DNA from: Bacteroidales bacterium
GTDB lineage: Bacteria > Bacteroidota > Bacteroidia > Bacteroidales > BM520
Length of the DNA stretch: 64,000 nucleotides
Direction: 5' to 3'
NCBI GenBank assembly: GCA_016285515.1
Contig: JAEEQW010000001.1
Coordinates: 1-64,000, forward strand
How positions within the stretch are numbered: position 1 is the first letter of the stretch; every line of letters begins with the position of its first letter. The notes under the pieces were generated by a model. The model had not been told where the DNA came from. It saw only the letters and a list, made by a program, of their open reading frames with translations, and made no database searches. Of the stretch, positions 15,462 to 36,167 are shown piece by piece. A program made the position numbers and the translations under genes.

Positions 15462-15718
15462 AAGAATAATTGATGATTGCCATGCGGAAGAGAAAGAGAT
15501 GAAATGCTGAGCTTTGTCGGGTTACAGTTCCAGGGCGAGTGGGAATTGTACTCCTGCTCGATGTTGACGGCGTCCGCGTGCGTTTACTGCAGTTCAGACA
15601 CCTTGAAAATTACCGATTAGTGCAGTTTAGGTTATGAAAAAGTTGCAGATTGGTGCATTTTATGTTTGTAATTGATTGAAAATTTGTATTTTTGCAAAAA
15701 CAAAAAACCGCTGACGCT
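15462..15718 (+). promoter_or_regulatory. Promoter with a repeat pair before the ATPase gene
   Basis: The 257-base gap holds no convincing gene. Two imperfect copies of GATTrGTGCAkTTTA lie at 15615-15629 and 15648-15662, with starts exactly 33 bases apart. Directly after them come a -33 TTTG (15665-15668) and a -7 box TATTTTTG (15687-15694). The ATG at 15719 follows 24 bases later. Two repeats on the same DNA face right before the promoter look like operator sites, perhaps for the ATPase itself or a linked factor. Confidence 0.5.
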
Positions 15719-17011
15719 ATGAATGAATTGGAAAGAGTGTTGCGCGACCAGCGCGAAGAACTTGAGAGCACCGATTACAGCCAGTTCGTCACCCGCAAGG
15801 AGGAGGAACAGATGGATTTGACGAGCCCCATTGCCCAAATTGTCATAGGGGTGCGCCGCTGCGGAAAATCGACGCTGTGCCAGAAGGTTCTCAAGCAGAG
15901 CGGCGTGTCGTTCGCATACGCCAACTTCGACGATGCCGTGTTGGCATCCTTGAAAGCCAACGAGATGAGTCTCTTGATGGAGACGCTTTACAGGATTTAC
16001 GGCGAGTTCACCCATCTTTTCCTGGACGAGGTGCAGAATGTGGACCAATGGCCCTTGTTTGTCAACAGCCTTTTGCGGAAGCAGATACACCTGGTCCTTA
16101 CGGGCAGCAACGCCAACCTCCTGAGCGATGACCTGAGCACGCATATTACCGGACGCTACAACGAAATCAGGCTGTACCCCTTCTCTTTCGGGGACTATTG
16201 CGTGGCCAAGGAGGTTGACACCGAGGGGTTGACCACCAAGGCGGAAGGGCTGCGCCGTCATGCACTCGACGAGTTCCTGATGCAGGGAGGCCTGCCCGAG
16301 ACCTTCGCCATGAAGAGCCAGGGGAAATACGTGCGCTCGCTTCTCGACGCTATCATCAACAAGGACATCTGCAAGCGTTACAAGATACGTTACAAGAAGA
16401 CCCTGCAGCAGATAGCAAACGGGCTTCTTGACCGTTTTTGCCAGGAAGTCAACTACCAGGACGTACAGGAGAAGTACCGCCTGAAGTCCATCCACACCGC
16501 CAAGAACTACGTAAGCTATATCGAGAAGGCCTATCTCGTCCGACTGGTACCACGCTACTCGTTCAAAAGCATAGAGCGCCAGAGCTACAGGAAGGTCTAT
16601 GCCATCGATACGGCGTTTGTCACCGACCATGCCGACGTGCTTCAGACTGAAAGCTGGGGCTGGCGTTTGGAGAACATTGTCTGCATTGAACTGCTTCGAC
16701 GCATGGAATACGCCACCCAGGAGCTGTTCTATATCAGGGAGAACCGCAGCTATGAGGTTGACTTCGCCGTGGTTGACCAGAGCCATGTTACCGAGCTGGT
16801 TCAGGTGACCTACGACTTCAGCACTCCCTCGACCAGATTGTACAACCGGGAGGTGGGAGGATTGTTGAAAGGGGCGGCTGCTACGCACTGCAATAACCTC
16901 ACCCTTGTGATGATGCACGGTGAGACGCGCGACATCCAGGAGGATGAATACACTGTCCATTGCGTGTCTGTCACCGATTGGCTGTTGGCACACCCAAGTT
17001 TATCAAAATAA
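15719..17011 (+). CDS. AAA-family ATPase with DUF4143-type nuclease-like C-terminus, GC-rich
   Basis: The start at 15719 is chosen because the only upstream in-frame alternative (TTG 15692) lies inside the -7 promoter box. The 430-residue product has Walker A GVRRCGKST (residues about 41-49) and Walker B HLFLDEVQNV, then a winged-helix-like middle, and a C-terminal PD-(D/E)xK-like fold suggested by 'YEVDFAVV' and the strand after it. This is the AAA_14/DUF4143 architecture, common in Bacteroidota and of unknown cellular role. Base composition is unlike its neighbours: sampled 60-base blocks are 58-67% GC against about 37% in the operon before it. This suggests acquisition from another lineage. 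A long antisense frame exists but is only a shadow of the high GC. Confidence 0.88.
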   Translation: MNELERVLRDQREELESTDYSQFVTRKEEEQMDLTSPIAQIVIGVRRCGKSTLCQKVLKQSGVSFAYANFDDAVLASLKANEMSLLMETLYRIYGEFTHLFLDEVQNVDQWPLFVNSLLRKQIHLVLTGSNANLLSDDLSTHITGRYNEIRLYPFSFGDYCVAKEVDTEGLTTKAEGLRRHALDEFLMQGGLPETFAMKSQGKYVRSLLDAIINKDICKRYKIRYKKTLQQIANGLLDRFCQEVNYQDVQEKYRLKSIHTAKNYVSYIEKAYLVRLVPRYSFKSIERQSYRKVYAIDTAFVTDHADVLQTESWGWRLENIVCIELLRRMEYATQELFYIRENRSYEVDFAVVDQSHVTELVQVTYDFSTPSTRLYNREVGGLLKGAAATHCNNLTLVMMHGETRDIQEDEYTVHCVSVTDWLLAHPSLSK

Positions 17012-27461: not shown

Positions 27462-28667
27462 ATGAATATCAGAGAACAGTTCCCTATACTGAAAATTACA
27501 GCCAACGGTAAGCCGTTGGTGTATTTGGACAATGGGGCGACAACACAGAAACCGCAGTGTGTAATCGACAGAATAGTAAAGTATTACACTGAAGAGAACA
27601 GCAATATCCACCGTGGAACGCATTATCTGAGCGAACTGAGTACACAGGCGTTCGAGCATAGCCGCGATACGGTGGCAAAGTTCATCAATGCCGGAAAACG
27701 TGAGGAAATTGTTTTCACCAAAGGTACGACAGATTCAATCAACCTTGTCGCCGATACGTTTTCAACAAGGTATCTTGCTGAAGGTGATGAGGTTATAGTA
27801 ACGCAGTTGGAGCATCATTCCAATATTGTGCCCTGGCAGATTGCCTGTGAAAAAAAAGGTGCTGTGCTGAAGGTGTTGCCCATCACTGAGAAAGGTGATT
27901 TGATGGTGGAAAAGTTGCCGGAACTGATGACCGATAGGACGAGAATTATTGCTTTTGCCCACGTTTCCAATGTTCTTGGAACAATAAATCCGGTTAAGGA
28001 TATAGTTGCAATTGCACATAGTCGCGGCATACCCGTTTTAGTTGACGGTGCTCAGGGAATCCCGCACATTAAAGTTGACGTGCAAGAACTTGACTGCGAT
28101 TTCTACTGTTTCTCGGGACATAAGATGTATGCTCCGATGGGTGTGGGAGTACTTTATGGTAAGGAGAAGTGGCTCAATGACCTGCCTCCTTATCAGGGTG
28201 GCGGCGAGATGATTGGAACAGTCACCTTTGCAAGGACCACTTACAATGACTTGCCTTACAAATTTGAGGCGGGAACCCCGAATGTTGAAGCTGTGCTTGG
28301 GCTTGAGACTGCCATTGATTTCATGGACAACATCGGTTATGATGCGATAATGCGGCATGAAAACGAGTTGCTCAAATATTGTACCGAGGAACTGAAAAAG
28401 ACAGATGGAGTAAGGATTTACGGTGAGTCTGAATTCAAGTCTGGAGTGATTTCGTTTCTGATAAATGGTATCCATCCCTTTGATGTGGGTACGTTGCTTG
28501 ACAAGATTAGCGGAGTTGCTGTCAGAACCGGACATCACTGTGCCGAGCCGCTGATGGACTTTTACGGAATCCCGGGAACTGTGCGTGCATCTTTTGCCGT
28601 CTATAACACTTTGGAGGAAGTCGATGTCTTCATCAGCGGACTTAAAAAGGCAGTCATGATGCTATGA
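27462..28667 (+). CDS. sufS: SufS, cysteine desulfurase
   Basis: The ATG at 27462, one base after the sufD stop, gives 401 residues (MNIREQFPIL...). This is a group II desulfurase. It has the substrate-binding N-terminus LVYLDNGATTQKP, the PLP Lys in CFSGHKMYAPMGVGVLYG and the catalytic Cys in RTGHHCAEPLM. It delivers sulfur to SufE, whose gene lies at 36992. Confidence 0.96.
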   Translation: MNIREQFPILKITANGKPLVYLDNGATTQKPQCVIDRIVKYYTEENSNIHRGTHYLSELSTQAFEHSRDTVAKFINAGKREEIVFTKGTTDSINLVADTFSTRYLAEGDEVIVTQLEHHSNIVPWQIACEKKGAVLKVLPITEKGDLMVEKLPELMTDRTRIIAFAHVSNVLGTINPVKDIVAIAHSRGIPVLVDGAQGIPHIKVDVQELDCDFYCFSGHKMYAPMGVGVLYGKEKWLNDLPPYQGGGEMIGTVTFARTTYNDLPYKFEAGTPNVEAVLGLETAIDFMDNIGYDAIMRHENELLKYCTEELKKTDGVRIYGESEFKSGVISFLINGIHPFDVGTLLDKISGVAVRTGHHCAEPLMDFYGIPGTVRASFAVYNTLEEVDVFISGLKKAVMML

Positions 28668-29596
28668 AAGATGAAACAAACTCACAGTACACTTCAACAG
28701 GTACGGTAAAATCTGAAAGTCCTGATGCCGCAACATCTGTTAATGATGGGGTGGCCACCATAGAATCACTTATCCTTCAGCATTCATCGCGTGGAATGTA
28801 CATTTTGCGCAGATATATGCCTGCTGACTATTGTATGAAGGCTGCGGAAGACTTACTGCGACAGCAACGCGGCAAGGTGCTGATTTGCACCGGATTTTAC
28901 TGTTTCGGCACCGGTGAGACTGATGGACCGGTCGGCACTTACTTTCTTGCTAAGGCCCTGAAAGAGCTGGGGTATAGCCCCGTCATTGTAACAGACATGT
29001 ATTCAATGCGTTACTTCATAGCCGACCCAAGTTATCAATTGGTTGAGTATGATAATGAATCATTTGAGAATATCGAAGGAAACAACTCTTATGCTGATAT
29101 AAATAATCGTAGTTATATTGAAGACTGTGTGGCGATGATTTCCATAGAACGTTGCGGGAGGGCTTCCGACGGTAGGTATTACAATATGAAAGGTGTTGAC
29201 ATTTCTCGGTTCACATCGGGTATAGACGACATTTTCATCCGCAGTAAATGCTTGACCATCGGCATCGGTGATGGCGGCAACGAAATTGGAATGGGCAATT
29301 TGGAGGACATCATCAGGGAGGAGATAAATATTATCCCTTCATCGGTCAAGGTTGATGATTTAATCATTGCAACAGTCTCAAATTGGGGCGCGTATGGTTT
29401 TATGGCGGCATTAGGAAAACTGACCGGCAAAAGTCTTCTTCCATCAGCTGATGATGTTCGGGAATATCTGAGATACATCGTCATTTTGGGTGCTGTTGAC
29501 GGCATCAAAGGCGAAGGTCATTACAGTGTTGACGGATTCGGTCCGGAAGTTGATGGAGAGATTATTGACGCATTATCGTCAATTTGTGATGATTGA
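28664..29596 (+). CDS. DUF4392 / D-glutamate cyclase-like protein
   Basis: The 310-residue product overlaps the sufS stop (ATGA). The core 'LICTGFYCFGTGETDGPVGTYFLAKAL' and 'IGDGGNEIGMGN' match the DUF4392 domain found at the C-terminus of D-glutamate cyclase, which turns D-glutamate into 5-oxo-D-proline. Here it is a stand-alone domain with an extra N-terminal stretch of about 35 polar residues. The link to Fe-S assembly is not explained. The family assignment is firm, the reaction is inferred. Confidence 0.8.
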   Translation: MKDETNSQYTSTGTVKSESPDAATSVNDGVATIESLILQHSSRGMYILRRYMPADYCMKAAEDLLRQQRGKVLICTGFYCFGTGETDGPVGTYFLAKALKELGYSPVIVTDMYSMRYFIADPSYQLVEYDNESFENIEGNNSYADINNRSYIEDCVAMISIERCGRASDGRYYNMKGVDISRFTSGIDDIFIRSKCLTIGIGDGGNEIGMGNLEDIIREEINIIPSSVKVDDLIIATVSNWGAYGFMAALGKLTGKSLLPSADDVREYLRYIVILGAVDGIKGEGHYSVDGFGPEVDGEIIDALSSICDD

Positions 29597-29677
29597 CGCA
29601 TCATATCAGGACAAACCGTTCTCATTCGAAAATTCGCAGGCCATACGAAACGGTCAGTAAATCGTAGTGGTAAATCC

Positions 29678-29702
29678 TGTAGGGACACACCGCGTGTGTC
29701 CG
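29678..29702. repeat. Short palindromic repeat beginning TGTAGGG
   Basis: TGTAGGGACACACCGCGTGT continues to TCCG at 29702. The inner part GGACACACC-G-CGTGTGTCC is nearly palindromic. Similar 'TGTAGGG...' palindromes are scattered through gut Bacteroidales genomes. It lies directly before the next repeat block. Confidence 0.5.
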
Positions 29703-29716
29703 CCAACGAAATTCAG

Positions 29717-29782
29717 CTGCCGTGGTACGACAGCCCTACATACGAATTGACAATGCGGCTGCCGTGGTACGACAGCCCTACA
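29717..29782. repeat. Interspersed repeat, first pair of units
   Basis: Two copies of a 24-base unit with core GTGGTACGACAGCCC lie at 29717-29740 and 29759-29782, exactly 42 bases apart and joined by TACGAATTGACAATGCGG. The same pair, with the same spacing, occurs at 33065-33130, and degraded units at 34837-34883. It is a dispersed non-coding repeat (MITE-like or REP-like). Confidence 0.8.
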
Positions 29783-29874
29783 AGACCCCCTGTTGGAATT
29801 CTTCATTTTTTTGAGGATTAGATCTCGGTTATACATTTTTTTGTCCATCCAGCTTATTATTCGGGATTATTATG

Positions 29875-30014
29875 TAATTTTGCAAGGTTAATTCCATCAT
29901 GCCATGAAAGAAGGCATCCATCAAGTGGCCATAAACATGAAAGCCGCTGGTGTGGACAATACCCTCATTCTCGCCACGACAGAATTGACAAAAGAAGAAA
30001 TAAACTATTTTTGA
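29875..30014 (+). pseudogene. Promoter plus 3' remnant of an Rpn/PD-(D/E)xK transposase-type gene
   Basis: A -7 box TAATTTTG (29875-29882) precedes an ATG at 29904 and a 36-codon frame ending in TGA at 30012-30014. The product (...HQVAINMKAAGVDNTLILAT... then TELTKEEINYF) resembles the extreme C-terminus of Rpn-family recombination-promoting nucleases, whose tails read 'ia.nm.akG.d...Ia..TgLt.eeI'. All catalytic parts are missing. I infer a remnant fused by deletion to a promoter. Confidence 0.5.
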
Positions 30015-30084
30015 AAACATATTTCATAACCTAAAAAACAAACCGCACAAAACAGAAATAATATAACATAATTAACCACCTGAG

Positions 30085-30250
30085 CTTTACGCTCTTGTTC
30101 TCTCAGTTGAAAACTGGACACTTTCAAATCAAGTGAGAATAAGTGCTTTAAGTTCGCGCCGATAGGCGTGGGCTTTTTGTATTTATCTACTTGATTGGTC
30201 GTCCAGTAAACCACAACTGAAGGTAATGCAAAAAGTTTCACGCTTTTTTT
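30085..30250 (+). ncRNA. Structured leader RNA B, diverged copy of leader A
   Basis: Nested exact pairings: TCAGTTG (30103-30109) with CAACTGA (30214-30220), ACTGGAC (30113-30119) with GTCCAGT (30201-30207), AATCAAGT (30127-30134) with ACTTGATT (30189-30196), and an inner hairpin CGCC-GATA-GGCG (30157-30168). A competing terminator-like stem pairs GCGTG..CTTTTT (30166-30178) with AAAAAG..CACGC (30230-30243), followed by seven T. It shares the 3' end TTyCACGCTTTTTTTATG with leader A. It lies before the TGA-recoded segment and the secreted-protein gene. Confidence 0.5.
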
Positions 30251-30304
30251 ATGCCCATTTGAGAACTAACGGTGAAATAAAAAAACTAATAACTAATTAT
30301 TTAA

Positions 30305-31582
30305 CAACAAATTAAAAAGAAAGGAGGCAAAAAAAGAAGTCCGGAAAGGAATCAAAAATGTGGTAAACGCATTAAACATTGATTTAGACCGATTACATGA
30401 ATCGAAGCTTCAGGTGGTAACGGTGGTTGAGGCAACTTTTTCGGTGTCCAGTGGAGTCCTATGTATGTCACACGAATGTCATGAGATCAGCCTGTGGAAA
30501 GCGGTTATTTCGCCATAACACCAATAAAAAGTTGATTAAATTGATTAAATGTATGGGTTTGAGACATACCATATATAGAAATTAATAAAAGAGGAAAAGA
30601 CTACAAATTACGAGTTTGGTCATGAATAACCAGGATAAATTGAGATTTAGCAGTGACACCTTTCGGTTTGAGTAGTAGCGAGAATACGACAGAATTTTAT
30701 GTTAATCCAAATGGTATCAGTATGTTTTGAAGTCCATATTTTTTCAGAGGTACTGGAAACAATGCTGTCAGATGACTAAGTGTAAACTGACCAATTTTTG
30801 CATGACATTCAGGAAACTACATATATATGTATGCAAATTGAAATTGAGCAGATGATGAAAATCGTAGTTATGAGATACTGTGAGAAAATGAACTTGCTGT
30901 CGGTACCAGATGATGAGCTTTCATTTACTTCACGCAAAGAACTGGAACTTACAACAATATCACAGGTTGAGAGTATCCATGAGTCATCCATGAACGAAAT
31001 GGTATAATAAATACTGTTTGATGTAATCCTAGTGATCCTCCTGCAAATGCTCCTCAATGAATATTATGATGAAATATTTCTCCACAAACACAATGTACAA
31101 TACAAAATCGGACATGACATAATTTTCATGGAGTTCTTGCATGAGATTTGGCGGTTGATAAAGGAGATGCATACAACTCACTCATGGTTTGAGTAAACAC
31201 AGATAATCCACAAGCTACACTTGATGTCAATGGATCACTTAGATTAGGAAGCAATTGTATGCCAAATAATATGACATGTAATGCGTCAAATGCTGGAACA
31301 ATGATGTACCTTGAGAAAATAGATTTAACTTCAACTCCAATAGAATATCAATGAAGTTTAGTTATATGTATTGCTAATGGTGTAAATATAAATACACAAC
31401 AACAAATCATAGTAAATTACGTACGGTATGATATAATGAGATGACTGACAGGAACAAGTTTAGAACAATTATGATTCGACGCAAATAATTGACCTTGTAT
31501 AATACCAAAACCAAGTGCAAGAGTATTCCCAATACCACTTAATGACGACATACATGACTTCATACCCGAAATTGATAATTAA
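30305..31582 (+). CDS. TGA-recoded open frame (TGA = Gly, translation table 25): tail-fibre-like or surface protein, 5' truncated
   Basis: No standard-code gene fits this region. In the frame ending with TAA at 31580-31582, no TAA or TAG occurs back to 30302-30304, while about 31 TGA codons do. Read as glycine they fall where glycine is expected: 'GVNTDNPQATLDVNGSLRLG', 'VWSGITRINGDLAVTPFG', 'AGDLAVDKGDAYNS'. TGG is used for Trp in the same frame, which argues against the TGA = Trp code. The 'NPQATLDVNGSLRLG' motif is typical of phage tail fibres and large surface proteins, and the protein is Gly/Asn-rich and beta-rich throughout. Table 25 is known from Absconditabacteria (SR1) and Gracilibacteria. 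No start codon is visible. The true left boundary lies between 30327 and about 30385. In this host, UGA would stop translation, so it is presumably silent here. Confidence 0.85.
30314..30326. repeat. Left copy of a 13-base direct repeat bracketing the recoded segment
   Basis: AAAAAGAAAGGAG, which also serves as a ribosome-binding-like sequence, recurs at 31654-31666, 1340 bases away. The right copy is nine bases before the ATG at 31675. This looks like the junction of an insertion or of a chimeric join. Confidence 0.6.
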
Positions 31583-31586
31583 AAAC

Positions 31587-31614
31587 TTGACTTTAAATAC
31601 TTTTTCACTATAGT
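31587..31614 (+). promoter_or_regulatory. Sigma70-type promoter, foreign to the host
   Basis: TTGACT (31587-31592) and TATAGT (31609-31614) are 16 bases apart, with TATAAT directly after. This is the classic -35/-10 type and not the Bacteroidota type, so the foreign segment extends at least to here. Confidence 0.5.
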
Positions 31615-31653
31615 TATAATACAAGATATATACAAAATAAAAAAATAATCAAA

Positions 31654-31666
31654 AAAAAGAAAGGAG
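31654..31666. repeat. Right copy of the 13-base direct repeat; ribosome-binding site of the next gene
   Basis: AAAAAGAAAGGAG, identical to 30314-30326. It precedes the ATG at 31675 with good spacing for a ribosome-binding site. Confidence 0.6.
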
Positions 31667-31674
31667 AAATAAAA

Positions 31675-32979
31675 ATGAAAAAGATTTTTCTAATAATTAT
31701 TTGTGCTCTTTTTTGCTTGATAGAAGTTTCGGCACAAGACACTATTGTCACAATTCCACAATTATCACAACAGTTTCCCAAAAGGATAAATGCTTGTGTT
31801 AATAAGTACGATCGAGTACTTCTGTATGCTCCAGACAATTGCTCTACCTTCAAATTTGAAATAAACGGCGAGTGGATCTATAATGTTAGCCCAATAATAT
31901 TTGAAACAACGACTACCGGTTGTTGGTTCAATGGATGTGGATACGATTTAGGTTTTGGCGTCTACTTCATAGAACCAAACGTCCCAGACGAGACCACTAC
32001 ATCTTATTGGAAGAGACAGTATGAGCCGATTACTCTTGAGGCACCCAGTGGGTACACCTACTTGTGGAATAATGGTTACAAGACACAAACTATCGAAGTC
32101 ACTGAACCAGGTACTTACACCTGTGCTGTGTCCGATATGTGTGCGACAGCCGTCCTGACCTATATTGTGCAGGACAACGTAGAGATCGATCTCGCTACCT
32201 GTGACCTTGAATCAAACTTGAACATGGTCACATGGCGAGTCACCGAGGAACAAGCCGAGTATATCGATTACGTTATCTTGAAACGTGACGGTCTACAAGT
32301 CGGCTCCGCCGACTACACCGACGGCTACTTCCTTGACAACATAGGAAGTGGATCCGCTTCCAGAACTTATACTGTGACAGCAGTTGCAAGTGACGGAACG
32401 GACTGTCCAATAGTTAGTTATCCTAAGGAGACTATTCACATGGCTTACTTGATTGGCTTGAACGCCACGATAGAAGTCAACTGGAATATCCCCACTGGCT
32501 ATGACCTATTGGGATATAACATCTGCAAATGGTCCCCAGATAAATCCCTCCCCTCCGGGGAGGAGGGCCACGAAGTGGCGATGGGGGTCATGGATGGAGA
32601 CTTGACAATCATCGACTTCGTAGGTGCGAGTGTGACAAGCTACACCTGCACAGGCGATCAGTTCTACGAAGGCTACGTCGTTGTCCAAGGCGTCGAAGGC
32701 ACCAAGGATGGCGAAAGCCGTCTACTCTCAAACAGAAGTGACAAAAAAATAGACGGCCTTGTCAATACAGGCAATATAAGTCACTTCAACGTGTATCCTA
32801 ACCCAACGGACGGTGAATTTACCGTCGTTGGTACTACAGACTTGACCATTTACAACATACTTGGTCAGGTTGTGACTACAAGCCATGAGCAAGATAGTAC
32901 ACACAAGTTGTCACTAAGCTCAGGCATCTACTTCGTCAAATCTGGCGAAGGTTTGGTGAAGGAAATCGTGGTGGAATAA
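31675..32979 (+). CDS. Secreted protein with type IX secretion signal
   Basis: The 434-residue product begins with a signal peptide (ending EVSAQ). Residues 120-165 form an Ig/PKD-like domain of the type 'GYTYLWNNGYKTQTIEV', common in Bacteroidota surface proteins. A fibronectin-like part follows. The C-terminus is a type A sorting domain ('FNVYPNPTDGEFTVVG...IYNILGQVV...SGIYFVKSGEG'). A repeat element has inserted in frame at about residues 290-306. It is the natural downstream partner of leader RNA B if the foreign segment is removed. The role is unknown. Confidence 0.85.
   Translation: MKKIFLIIICALFCLIEVSAQDTIVTIPQLSQQFPKRINACVNKYDRVLLYAPDNCSTFKFEINGEWIYNVSPIIFETTTTGCWFNGCGYDLGFGVYFIEPNVPDETTTSYWKRQYEPITLEAPSGYTYLWNNGYKTQTIEVTEPGTYTCAVSDMCATAVLTYIVQDNVEIDLATCDLESNLNMVTWRVTEEQAEYIDYVILKRDGLQVGSADYTDGYFLDNIGSGSASRTYTVTAVASDGTDCPIVSYPKETIHMAYLIGLNATIEVNWNIPTGYDLLGYNICKWSPDKSLPSGEEGHEVAMGVMDGDLTIIDFVGASVTSYTCTGDQFYEGYVVVQGVEGTKDGESRLLSNRSDKKIDGLVNTGNISHFNVYPNPTDGEFTVVGTTDLTIYNILGQVVTTSHEQDSTHKLSLSSGIYFVKSGEGLVKEIVVE
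32544..32590. repeat. GC-rich palindromic repeat inside the coding sequence
   Basis: The stretch has CCCTCCCCTCC followed by GGGGAGGAGGG and then CCACGAAGTGGCGATGGGG. It stands out from its AT-richer surroundings and codes for 'SLPSGEEGHEVAMGV' without breaking the frame. It resembles dispersed 'CCCTCCCC..GGGGAGGG' elements of Bacteroidales intergenic DNA. Confidence 0.6.
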
Positions 32980-33064
32980 TCCGTGGCCATTGTAGAGCTG
33001 TCACATGGTTGCTGAGCATATCGAAGCATTGTGGCAGCCGCACCATTCGAATTGCGAAACGCGT

Positions 33065-33130
33065 CTGCCGTGGTACGACAGCCCTACATACGAATTGACA
33101 ATGCGGCTGCCGTGGTACGACAGCCCTACA
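33065..33130. repeat. Interspersed repeat, second pair of units
   Basis: Units at 33065-33088 and 33107-33130 repeat the 29717-29782 pair with the same 42-base spacing and the same joining sequence. Together the two pairs bracket the block that holds leader B, the recoded segment and the secreted-protein gene. Confidence 0.8.
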
Positions 33131-33166
33131 AAACCTCCCGTCGAGCAAATCCGATGGGAGGTTTTT
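33131..33166 (+). terminator. Rho-independent terminator
   Basis: AAACCTCCC (33131-33139) pairs with GGGAGGTTT (33156-33164) and runs into a T stretch. It lies downstream of the secreted-protein gene. Confidence 0.65.
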
Positions 33167-33348: not shown

Positions 33349-34698
33349 CTACTGCAACCCAGACAAATCCACCCGATATACCACATCAATAGTAGTCTGC
33401 TTCTCCAAGAAAGCCACCATGTAGATGGGTAGATACAACACTTTTCCGTCTTGAGAGACATTTTCATTGGTGAACACCAAGGCTTGCGGTATATGATATT
33501 CGGCATTGGTCATTACATTTGAGAGGGCGTTGTGCCTTTGGTAATCTTTGCCCGATTTCACTTCGATGGGTACAATCTCTCCGTCTTTTTCAATGATAAA
33601 ATCCAATTCCCCTTGCTTTTTGCTGTTGAAGTAATACAAGTCGAAACCTCGGGCATGCAGCTCCTGTGCAACGACGTTCTCGTAAATTGAACCGAAATTG
33701 ATGCCCTTGGCGTTGGTAAGCAACTGCAACTGAATGCCATCGGCATATTGGCAGGCCAACAATCCGATGTCGTTTTGAAACAACTTGAACAGATTGCGTG
33801 AGCGTGACAGTTTCAGCGGAGCAACAGGTTCATCTGAATTGAAAACTGGCAATGCTACACCAGCCTCTTTCAGCCAAATGAAACTGTTTTCATAACGCGA
33901 GAACTTTAAATTCTCGTTCAAGTTCTTGAGAATGAATCTCTTGTTCTTTGCGTTGAGTTCTGAAGGTATCAATTCGAAAATTTCTTCTATATAAAGCTTG
34001 TGATTTCGGTCATACTTGGCAATGTCACGCTTGTAGAGCCGGATGATGGCCTGCTGCTCAGCCAGCACTTCCTGAAGGTTGTTCGTGTCAAGGTATTTCT
34101 GCACTACGGCGGGCATGCCCCCTACGATGAGATACAAACGAAACAACTCCATAATCTTTTTATGGACAAAATCGTCAACAGACCGTTTTTGCTCCCAAGC
34201 CGTCTTGATTTCGTCCCATATCCTTTGGTTTACACCCAGAGCCATAAAAAACTCCTCAATATCAAGCGGAAACATTTCTTTGATGTCCATATAACCGACT
34301 GGTTCTGAACGCAAATCTTTCAATTCAACGCCTAAAAGCGACCCGCTCATAATGTAACGGTAACTGCCTTCCTCAACAAGAAATTTGATGGCTGTCACGA
34401 TTTCGGGACATTCCTGGACCTCGTCGAAAAAAACAAGGGTTTGTCCTTCAATGAGCGGTTGATTGGTCAAAGCAGAAAGCCGCAACAACATGTCTTTACT
34501 GTTTTTTGCATTGGAAATCACTTCGATGGCTTCTGGCATTTCGATGAAATTGATTTCGACCAAACTCTTGAAATGCGTAGTCCCAAAATGGCGGATAGAG
34601 AAGGATTTCCCTGTTTGTCGCGCCCCAGTGATTAGCAAAGCCTTCTTGTCGTTTTTATAATACTTTTCTAAGTAGCTGTCAATCTTTCTGTTAAGCAT
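33349..34698 (-). CDS. AAA ATPase with DUF4143 domain
   Basis: The start at 34696-34698 (MLNRKIDSYL...) is chosen over the longer frame because the upstream 52 codons run across the promoter and its repeats. The 449-residue product has Walker A GARQTGKS, Walker B LVFFDEVQECPE, the sensor region YIMSGS, a winged-helix part and a C-terminal PD-(D/E)xK-like motif (GELDFIIEKDGEIVPIEVKSG with catalytic-type E...D...E-x-K). This family is abundant in Bacteroidota; roles in defence or addiction are suspected but not established. Confidence 0.9.
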   Translation of the reverse strand: MLNRKIDSYLEKYYKNDKKALLITGARQTGKSFSIRHFGTTHFKSLVEINFIEMPEAIEVISNAKNSKDMLLRLSALTNQPLIEGQTLVFFDEVQECPEIVTAIKFLVEEGSYRYIMSGSLLGVELKDLRSEPVGYMDIKEMFPLDIEEFFMALGVNQRIWDEIKTAWEQKRSVDDFVHKKIMELFRLYLIVGGMPAVVQKYLDTNNLQEVLAEQQAIIRLYKRDIAKYDRNHKLYIEEIFELIPSELNAKNKRFILKNLNENLKFSRYENSFIWLKEAGVALPVFNSDEPVAPLKLSRSRNLFKLFQNDIGLLACQYADGIQLQLLTNAKGINFGSIYENVVAQELHARGFDLYYFNSKKQGELDFIIEKDGEIVPIEVKSGKDYQRHNALSNVMTNAEYHIPQALVFTNENVSQDGKVLYLPIYMVAFLEKQTTIDVVYRVDLSGLQ

Positions 34699-34700
34699 AA

Positions 34701-34780
34701 TTTGTCCGTTTTTCCAATGCAAAAATACTACTTTTTGTCCGTTTTTCCAATGTTTTTCTGAGTTTTTTGTCCGTTTTGTG
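34701..34780 (-). promoter_or_regulatory. Repeat operator over the ATPase promoter
   Basis: TTTGTCCGTTTTTCCAATG occurs at 34701-34719 and 34734-34752 (33 bases apart), and a partial third copy starts at 34766. On the minus strand the -7 box TATTTTTG lies at 34720-34727, between the first two copies. The -33 TTG (34748-34750) lies inside the second. The repeats therefore cover the promoter and should control it. Confidence 0.65.
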
Positions 34781-34836
34781 AAATTAGTGAATAGACACAT
34801 TGCGGCAGCTGTACCAGGCATGAATTGACCATGCGG

Positions 34837-34883
34837 CTGCCGTGGTACGAACAATTCGGCTGCCGTGATACGACAGCCCTACA
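34837..34883. repeat. Degraded third copy of the interspersed repeat
   Basis: A truncated unit (34837-34850) is followed by a nearly complete one with one change (34860-34883, GTGATACGACAGCCC). Same family as 29717-29782. Confidence 0.7.
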
Positions 34884-34946
34884 AATCCTAGACATGGGAA
34901 GGTGGAAAAATTATAAAACTTTTGGTTGCGGTTTTTTGAAAATATG

Positions 34947-35027: not shown

Positions 35028-36167
35028 ATGTATAATAGGGTATTATCATTGTCGGAGTCAGAAACCAATAGCCTTTTCCTGTTTGGGGCGAGGCAGACGG
35101 GAAAGACAAGTTTGCTTCGGGAGCGTTTTCCGAATTGCATCTATTATGATTTGCTTGAGTTCGATACAATGATGCGGTTTAGGCAACGTCCATCCTTGTT
35201 GCGCGACTTGCTCATGGAAGTGCCCAATGGGAGTCTGGTTGTCATTGATGAGATTCAACAGGTACCTGAACTGCTCAATGAAATTCATTTACTCATTTCG
35301 CGAAAACATATTAGGTTTATTCTTTGTGGTTCGAGTGCACGGAAACTGCGGCGTAATTCGGTCAACACCTTGGGCGGGCGTGCCTTGCCGACCTATCTGT
35401 ATCCTTTGGTGAGTGCCGAAATCCCTGATTTCAACCTGATTAGGGCGGTGAACAATGGCATGATGCCAGCTATATATCCGCTTGACAATCCTCGCCGACA
35501 GATTCAAGCATACGTTGATGTCTATTTGAAAGAGGAAATTATGGCTGAGGCTTTGGTGCGCAATCTGATGGGCTTCAGCAATTTCCTTAGGGCGGCTGCC
35601 ATAACCAACGGTGAGATAGTGAACTTTCAGAACATTGCACAAGATTGCGGTGTGGGCGCAAAAACGGTGAAGGAGTATTTTTCCATTCTCACTGACACGT
35701 TGATAGGTTACATGATTCCTGCTTATACGAGGACGAATAAGCGCAGTGTCGTGCAGGCACCTCGTTTCTATTTTTTCGATGTTGCTATCCCCAATTTTTT
35801 GCTGAACCGCAGCGAACTTTTCCCTGGTTCGCCAGAGTTTGGTCACGCTTTTGAGCATTTTTTCATGCAAGAGTTGGTGGCCTACTTGGGATACCACAAT
35901 AGCATTGAGCCGCTTTCCTATTGGAGGACATATACAGGCTTGGAAGTTGATGCAGTGATAGGTGAGGCAAGGGTTGCCATTGAGTTCAAGTCGGTGACGG
36001 AAGTCAGGACATCACATTTGAAAAACCTTAAGCGGTTTGCGGTGGATTTCCCTAACGCACGGCTGATTATAGTCACATTAGATAAACTCAGTCGCAAGAT
36101 GGGCAATGTTGAAAGCTATTATGCGTATGATTTCCTAAAGATGCTTTGGGAAGGGAAGATTATCTGA
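35028..36167 (+). CDS. AAA ATPase with DUF4143 domain
   Basis: The 379-residue product has Walker A GARQTGKT (about residues 20-27), Walker B LVVIDEIQQVPE, 'FILCGSSARKLRR' as sensor 1, a winged-helix linker ('IAQDCGVGAKTVKEYFSIL') and a C-terminal nuclease-like part with LEVDAVIG and VAIEFKS. Shorter N-terminus than the copy at 33349 and only distant similarity, so it is not a recent duplicate. Function unknown. Confidence 0.9.
   Translation: MYNRVLSLSESETNSLFLFGARQTGKTSLLRERFPNCIYYDLLEFDTMMRFRQRPSLLRDLLMEVPNGSLVVIDEIQQVPELLNEIHLLISRKHIRFILCGSSARKLRRNSVNTLGGRALPTYLYPLVSAEIPDFNLIRAVNNGMMPAIYPLDNPRRQIQAYVDVYLKEEIMAEALVRNLMGFSNFLRAAAITNGEIVNFQNIAQDCGVGAKTVKEYFSILTDTLIGYMIPAYTRTNKRSVVQAPRFYFFDVAIPNFLLNRSELFPGSPEFGHAFEHFFMQELVAYLGYHNSIEPLSYWRTYTGLEVDAVIGEARVAIEFKSVTEVRTSHLKNLKRFAVDFPNARLIIVTLDKLSRKMGNVESYYAYDFLKMLWEGKII

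Follow-up and report, generated by a model that had tools for sequence, protein, structure and literature searches.

A gene fragment that appears to write glycine as TGA, within a Bacteroidales-type contig of the standard genetic code

Introduction

The reading of TGA as glycine (NCBI translation table 25, here code 25) is the genetic code of Absconditabacteria (SR1) and Gracilibacteria. These bacteria are very small and probably host-dependent and, to our knowledge, their hosts are largely unknown. Gene transfer between phyla is well known. Code-25 genomes and TGA-dense prophages have already been described. Nine predicted Gracilibacteria phages are also targeted by other bacteria; five of the nine matched Bacteroidetes spacers, and all nine are compatible with code 11 (PMC10746230). 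In river mats, co-occurrence lends moderate support to a pairing of Absconditabacteria with Bacteroidetes (PMC8406219). Among groundwater MAGs, six transfers from Bacteroidota to Patescibacteria were inferred, mostly not recent (PMC12455944).

The locus described here lies in a window of 64,000 nt (positions 1 to 64,000 of contig JAEEQW010000001.1, assembly GCA_016285515.1). It would involve the same two phyla as the groundwater transfers, but the DNA would have gone into a Bacteroidales-type genome and across a genetic-code border. Searches of the open-licence literature gave no earlier account of a standard-code chromosome that carries a TGA = Gly gene, which does not in itself prove novelty.

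Results

The plus strand at 30305..31582 consists of a single frame of 425 codons with 31 in-frame TGA, no TAA or TAG, and a terminal TAA at 31580-31582. The other two plus-strand frames of the same stretch contain 25 and 23 TAA/TAG codons. Across 2000 Markov shuffles, the longest TAA/TAG-free run over all six frames reached at most 318 codons (mean 132). Such a long frame, free of TAA and TAG and with many in-frame TGA codons, has the form of a table 25 gene, and coding periodicity is evident from its GC content at the three codon positions (0.40/0.43/0.21).

The first-pass annotation had described one frame with about 31 TGA codons, no TAA or TAG and a normal TAA end, and these features are confirmed. 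Its span (30305-31582) holds for the frame and fails for the start of the gene, as position 30305 is merely the codon following the upstream in-frame stop. Since the opening ~30 codons are unlike the remainder, and neither a start codon nor a signal peptide was found ahead of the protein, the coding part is likely a 5'-truncated fragment beginning at about 30395 (30395..31582, +), with its left edge between about 30240 and 30460. The encoded product is likely a Gly/Asn-rich protein of the extracellular (secreted) type with an LDVNG motif, present as its C-terminal ~395 codons. None of the 124 one-step routes to TAA or TAG in the frame has been taken (0/124), which bounds the neutral divergence since transfer to about 7% or less. 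Because the frame is undecayed, the stretch either arrived recently or does not belong to the chromosome.

The assignment of TGA to glycine in this frame is well supported by codon counts and alignment. The codons include 31 TGA, 27 GGN and 3 TGG. Tryptophan is written TGG, and a reading of TGA as tryptophan would make the protein 8% Trp, in line with the argument of the first-pass annotation against that code. In the motif VGVNTDNPQATLDVNGSLRLGSN (31187..31261, +; residues 295-317), the TGA at codon 296 falls on a glycine that all nine aligned proteins share. The motif, of the form VGxxT-P-LDVNG, recurs in proteins from genomes that belong to the same class as a named Gracilibacteria MAG. In one relative, L016 (62% identity across 29 aa), the corresponding frame contains 56 TGA and 29 GGN, and its own genome appears to use TGA as glycine. 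At three glycine positions the codons are exchanged between the two, with TGA here and GGT there once, and GGA here and TGA there twice. Within this short motif, TGA is found where the relatives have glycine. The code-25-trained codon model is positive in the frame over most of about 30450-31500, where the host codon model is mostly strongly negative; the codon usage of this part is like that of code-25 genomes. The first-pass proposal that TGA means glycine agrees with codon 296, the codon exchanges with L016 and the codon model.

As in the table 25 genes of Gracilibacteria and Absconditabacteria, glycine is written by a mixture of TGA and GGN (31:27), tryptophan by TGG, the third positions are AT-rich and the stop is TAA. 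The fragment differs from those genes in being placed in a chromosome where TGA is a stop, and in retaining just the C-terminal part. In respect to the extracellular proteins of Patescibacteria, the likeness lies in the motif VGxxT-x2-P-x-A-x-LDVNG-x2-R, and some of these relatives also share the subsequent C(D/N)(A/S)-x-GT stretch. The difference is that residues 1-285 of the fragment have no detected relative, and that the N-terminus is missing from the truncated piece, and with it any signal peptide.

None of 353 code-25-class genomes, 380 genomes drawn from the phylum of that class and 60 relatives of the host yielded a close homologue of the table-25 protein outside the short motif. Searches against Pfam, PHROGs, PDB sequences, and phage and plasmid records gave nothing, and pattern scans of IMG/VR for the protein's own peptides gave none; a Pfam match to Latrotoxin_C (E 0.27) was rejected as noise. 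Absence is weak evidence here, as homologue searches count TGA as a stop or an unknown residue, and the sequences of surface proteins change quickly. The table-25 search that the first-pass annotation had proposed as a check yields motif-level matches in the code-25 class, and neither a close homologue nor a phage match. AlphaFold2 prediction on the single sequence (pLDDT 29) was useless. The source named in that annotation, a code-25 bacterium or its phage, is well supported by the codon usage and the TGA/GGN exchanges, and the donor group would be of the Gracilibacteria/Absconditabacteria type.

The host uses the standard code. It reads TGA as stop: prfB (RF2), with the canonical frameshift site AGGAGG..CTTTGAC, is present on the same contig (42056..43087, -), 35 of the 194 long genes on the contig have TGA as the final stop, and no tRNA-Gly(UCA), nor any other UCA anticodon, is found among the 36 tRNAs detected in 2.05 of the 2.58 Mb of the genome (~80%). 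The marks of a code-25 organism, a lost RF2 and a tRNA-Gly(UCA), are not observed. An internal TAA in prfB was rejected, since it is the normal frameshift site taken in the wrong frame. Further code-25-like frames were looked for in the same 2.05 of 2.58 Mb, and none was found.

The contig is 330 kb long. Upstream of the TGA frame lie the suf operon and a D-glutamate-cyclase-like gene (28664..29596, +), which itself ends in TGA. Directly downstream is a T9SS cargo gene in the standard code (Por_Secre_tail; 31675..32979, +), followed by AAA_14/DUF4143 genes. The assignment to a Bacteroidales-type chromosome rests on this gene content. Three AAA_14/DUF4143 genes are present in the window (15692-17011, 33349-34854 and 35028-36167), and two of them adjoin the variable block described below. 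The interval from the glutamate-cyclase-like gene to the TGA frame contains two short protein-like remnants, at 29898-30011 (+) and 30005-30241 (-), which have no match in Pfam. Rfam gave no match in the region.

In the close sister species G002, a genome of the same genus, both flanks of the block are 96.5-98.2% identical to the host (divergence 1.8-3.5%), and the aligned junctions place 29606 almost directly next to 32989. The glutamate-cyclase-like gene is the left anchor of this comparison, and the AAA_14/DUF4143 gene at 33349..34854 (-), 98% identical to the sister, is the right one. The 3.4 kb missing in G002 (29607..32988) comprise the TGA frame, debris and the T9SS gene. With the block missing and the flanks joined, the neighbourhood of the frame is a genuine variable spot, not conserved sequence. 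The empty site demonstrates variation of the block; alone it does not prove that the TGA frame belongs to the same molecule. To this extent (330-kb contig, T9SS and Suf genes, RF2 and the empty site) the assembly agrees with the first-pass placement in a Bacteroidales chromosome.

Sister comparison and genome BLAST identify a dispersed repeat bracketing the block, with the left copy at 29717..29793 (+) and the right one at 33065..33141 (+), 96% identical over 77 bp. Members of this family of short repeats, GCTGCCGTGGTACGACAGCCCTACA and related sequences, occur at 29660-29800, 32989-33141, 34822-34884 and in many other places of the genome (BLAST over 2.05 Mb gives about 40 pieces), and they bracket variable blocks.

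At the edges of the insert, a 13-nt exact direct repeat, AAAAAGAAAGGAG, is found at 30314..30326 (+) and at 31654..31666 (+), the second copy lying within the T9SS gene's leader. It is the longest word common to both edges. A match of this length was equalled in 7 of 500 shuffles (about 1.4%), so the bracketing repeat is weakly unusual and suggestive only. The left edge is overlapped, in another frame, by a protein-like standard-code frame X (LFNNKLKRKEAKKEVRKGIKNVVNALNIDLDRLHESKL..., KLKRKEAKKEVRKGIKNVVNALNIDLDRLHESKLQVV; 30297..30461, +), whose matches to Bacteroidales and code-25 genes did not rise above noise. At 31654-31677 the T9SS gene is preceded by a strong Shine-Dalgarno-like leader, a feature of few host genes (38 of 1369). 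An origin of this leader from the code-25 donor was not supported, with such a leader in 0 of 25-27 genes of code-25 loci vs 38/1369 in the host.

Discussion

The reading that we favor is that a fragment of a code-25 gene, from a bacterium or its phage, was recently inserted in a standard-code Bacteroidales-type chromosome, at joins given by the assembly (probability of roughly 0.58). About 1.2 kb of donor DNA would have entered a Bacteroidales-type cell and been joined into a variable intergenic spot, a hotspot flanked by repeats, through illegitimate recombination at short homology. The fragment would now be dead, recently acquired cargo that yields no full protein, as translation halts at the first TGA and the fragment lacks a start codon. 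Decoding of TGA as an amino acid by the host, or by an element within it, with expression of the gene in place, would suit a frame that is intact when TGA is read as glycine. It is highly improbable in view of the RF2 gene with its TGA frameshift site, the host genes that end in TGA, the 36 tRNAs without a UCA anticodon, and a fragment that has neither start codon nor signal peptide.

The insertion is weighed above an assembly chimera, in which a code-25 stretch from a Gracilibacteria or Absconditabacteria cell of the same sample was misjoined into the Bacteroidales-type contig; this is doubtful, though still a serious competitor. A misjoin would agree with the undecayed state of the frame and with its being the sole one of its kind in 2.05 Mb, the genome is a draft of 54 contigs, many of 2-5 kb, and the abundance of dispersed repeats in this region invites assembly errors. 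Against it, the assembly would have had to err twice independently, at points 1.2-1.4 kb apart that both lie in unique sequence of a 330-kb contig. The dispersed repeats are some 0.5-0.7 kb from one edge and 1.4 kb from the other, the edges have no common word longer than 13 nt, and the surrounding block truly varies between sister species. The weak points of the insertion reading are the want of a close homologue beyond the motif, and frame X at the left edge, which it does not explain. A sub-case of the insertion reading, overlapping with it in probability, is the entry of a tail or fibre gene of a code-25 phage into a Bacteroidales cell. We regard it as unlikely. LDVNG-motif proteins are present in IMG/VR contigs too, and the published spacer matches tie predicted Gracilibacteria phages also to Bacteroidetes (PMC10746230), but the motif-bearing IMG/VR proteins matching P0001 are without TGA, no phage gene, structural or for integration, adjoins the fragment, and the searches of PHROGs, phage records and IMG/VR patterns for its own peptides gave no match. 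Moreover, the code-11 compatibility noted above extends to all nine Gracilibacteria phages shared with other bacteria, although two phages of Absconditabacteria were TGA-dense (PMC10746230).

The stronger form of the favored insertion reading has a TGA = Gly bacterium as the source of a genuine, recent transfer into the chromosome of a standard-code Bacteroidales-type bacterium, marking physical contact between them (epibiont and host, or predator and prey); we hold this tentatively, at somewhat under even odds. Standard gene callers do not see a code-25 gene that lies in a code-11 chromosome, and selection cannot act on its protein. Fragments of this kind would serve as neutral markers for the bacteria that exchange DNA with Gracilibacteria and Absconditabacteria and, if the transfer is true, the untranslatable DNA marks physical contact of the two bacteria. 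Table-25 scans of the intergenic gaps in standard-code genomes would make these DNA-exchange partners directly testable.
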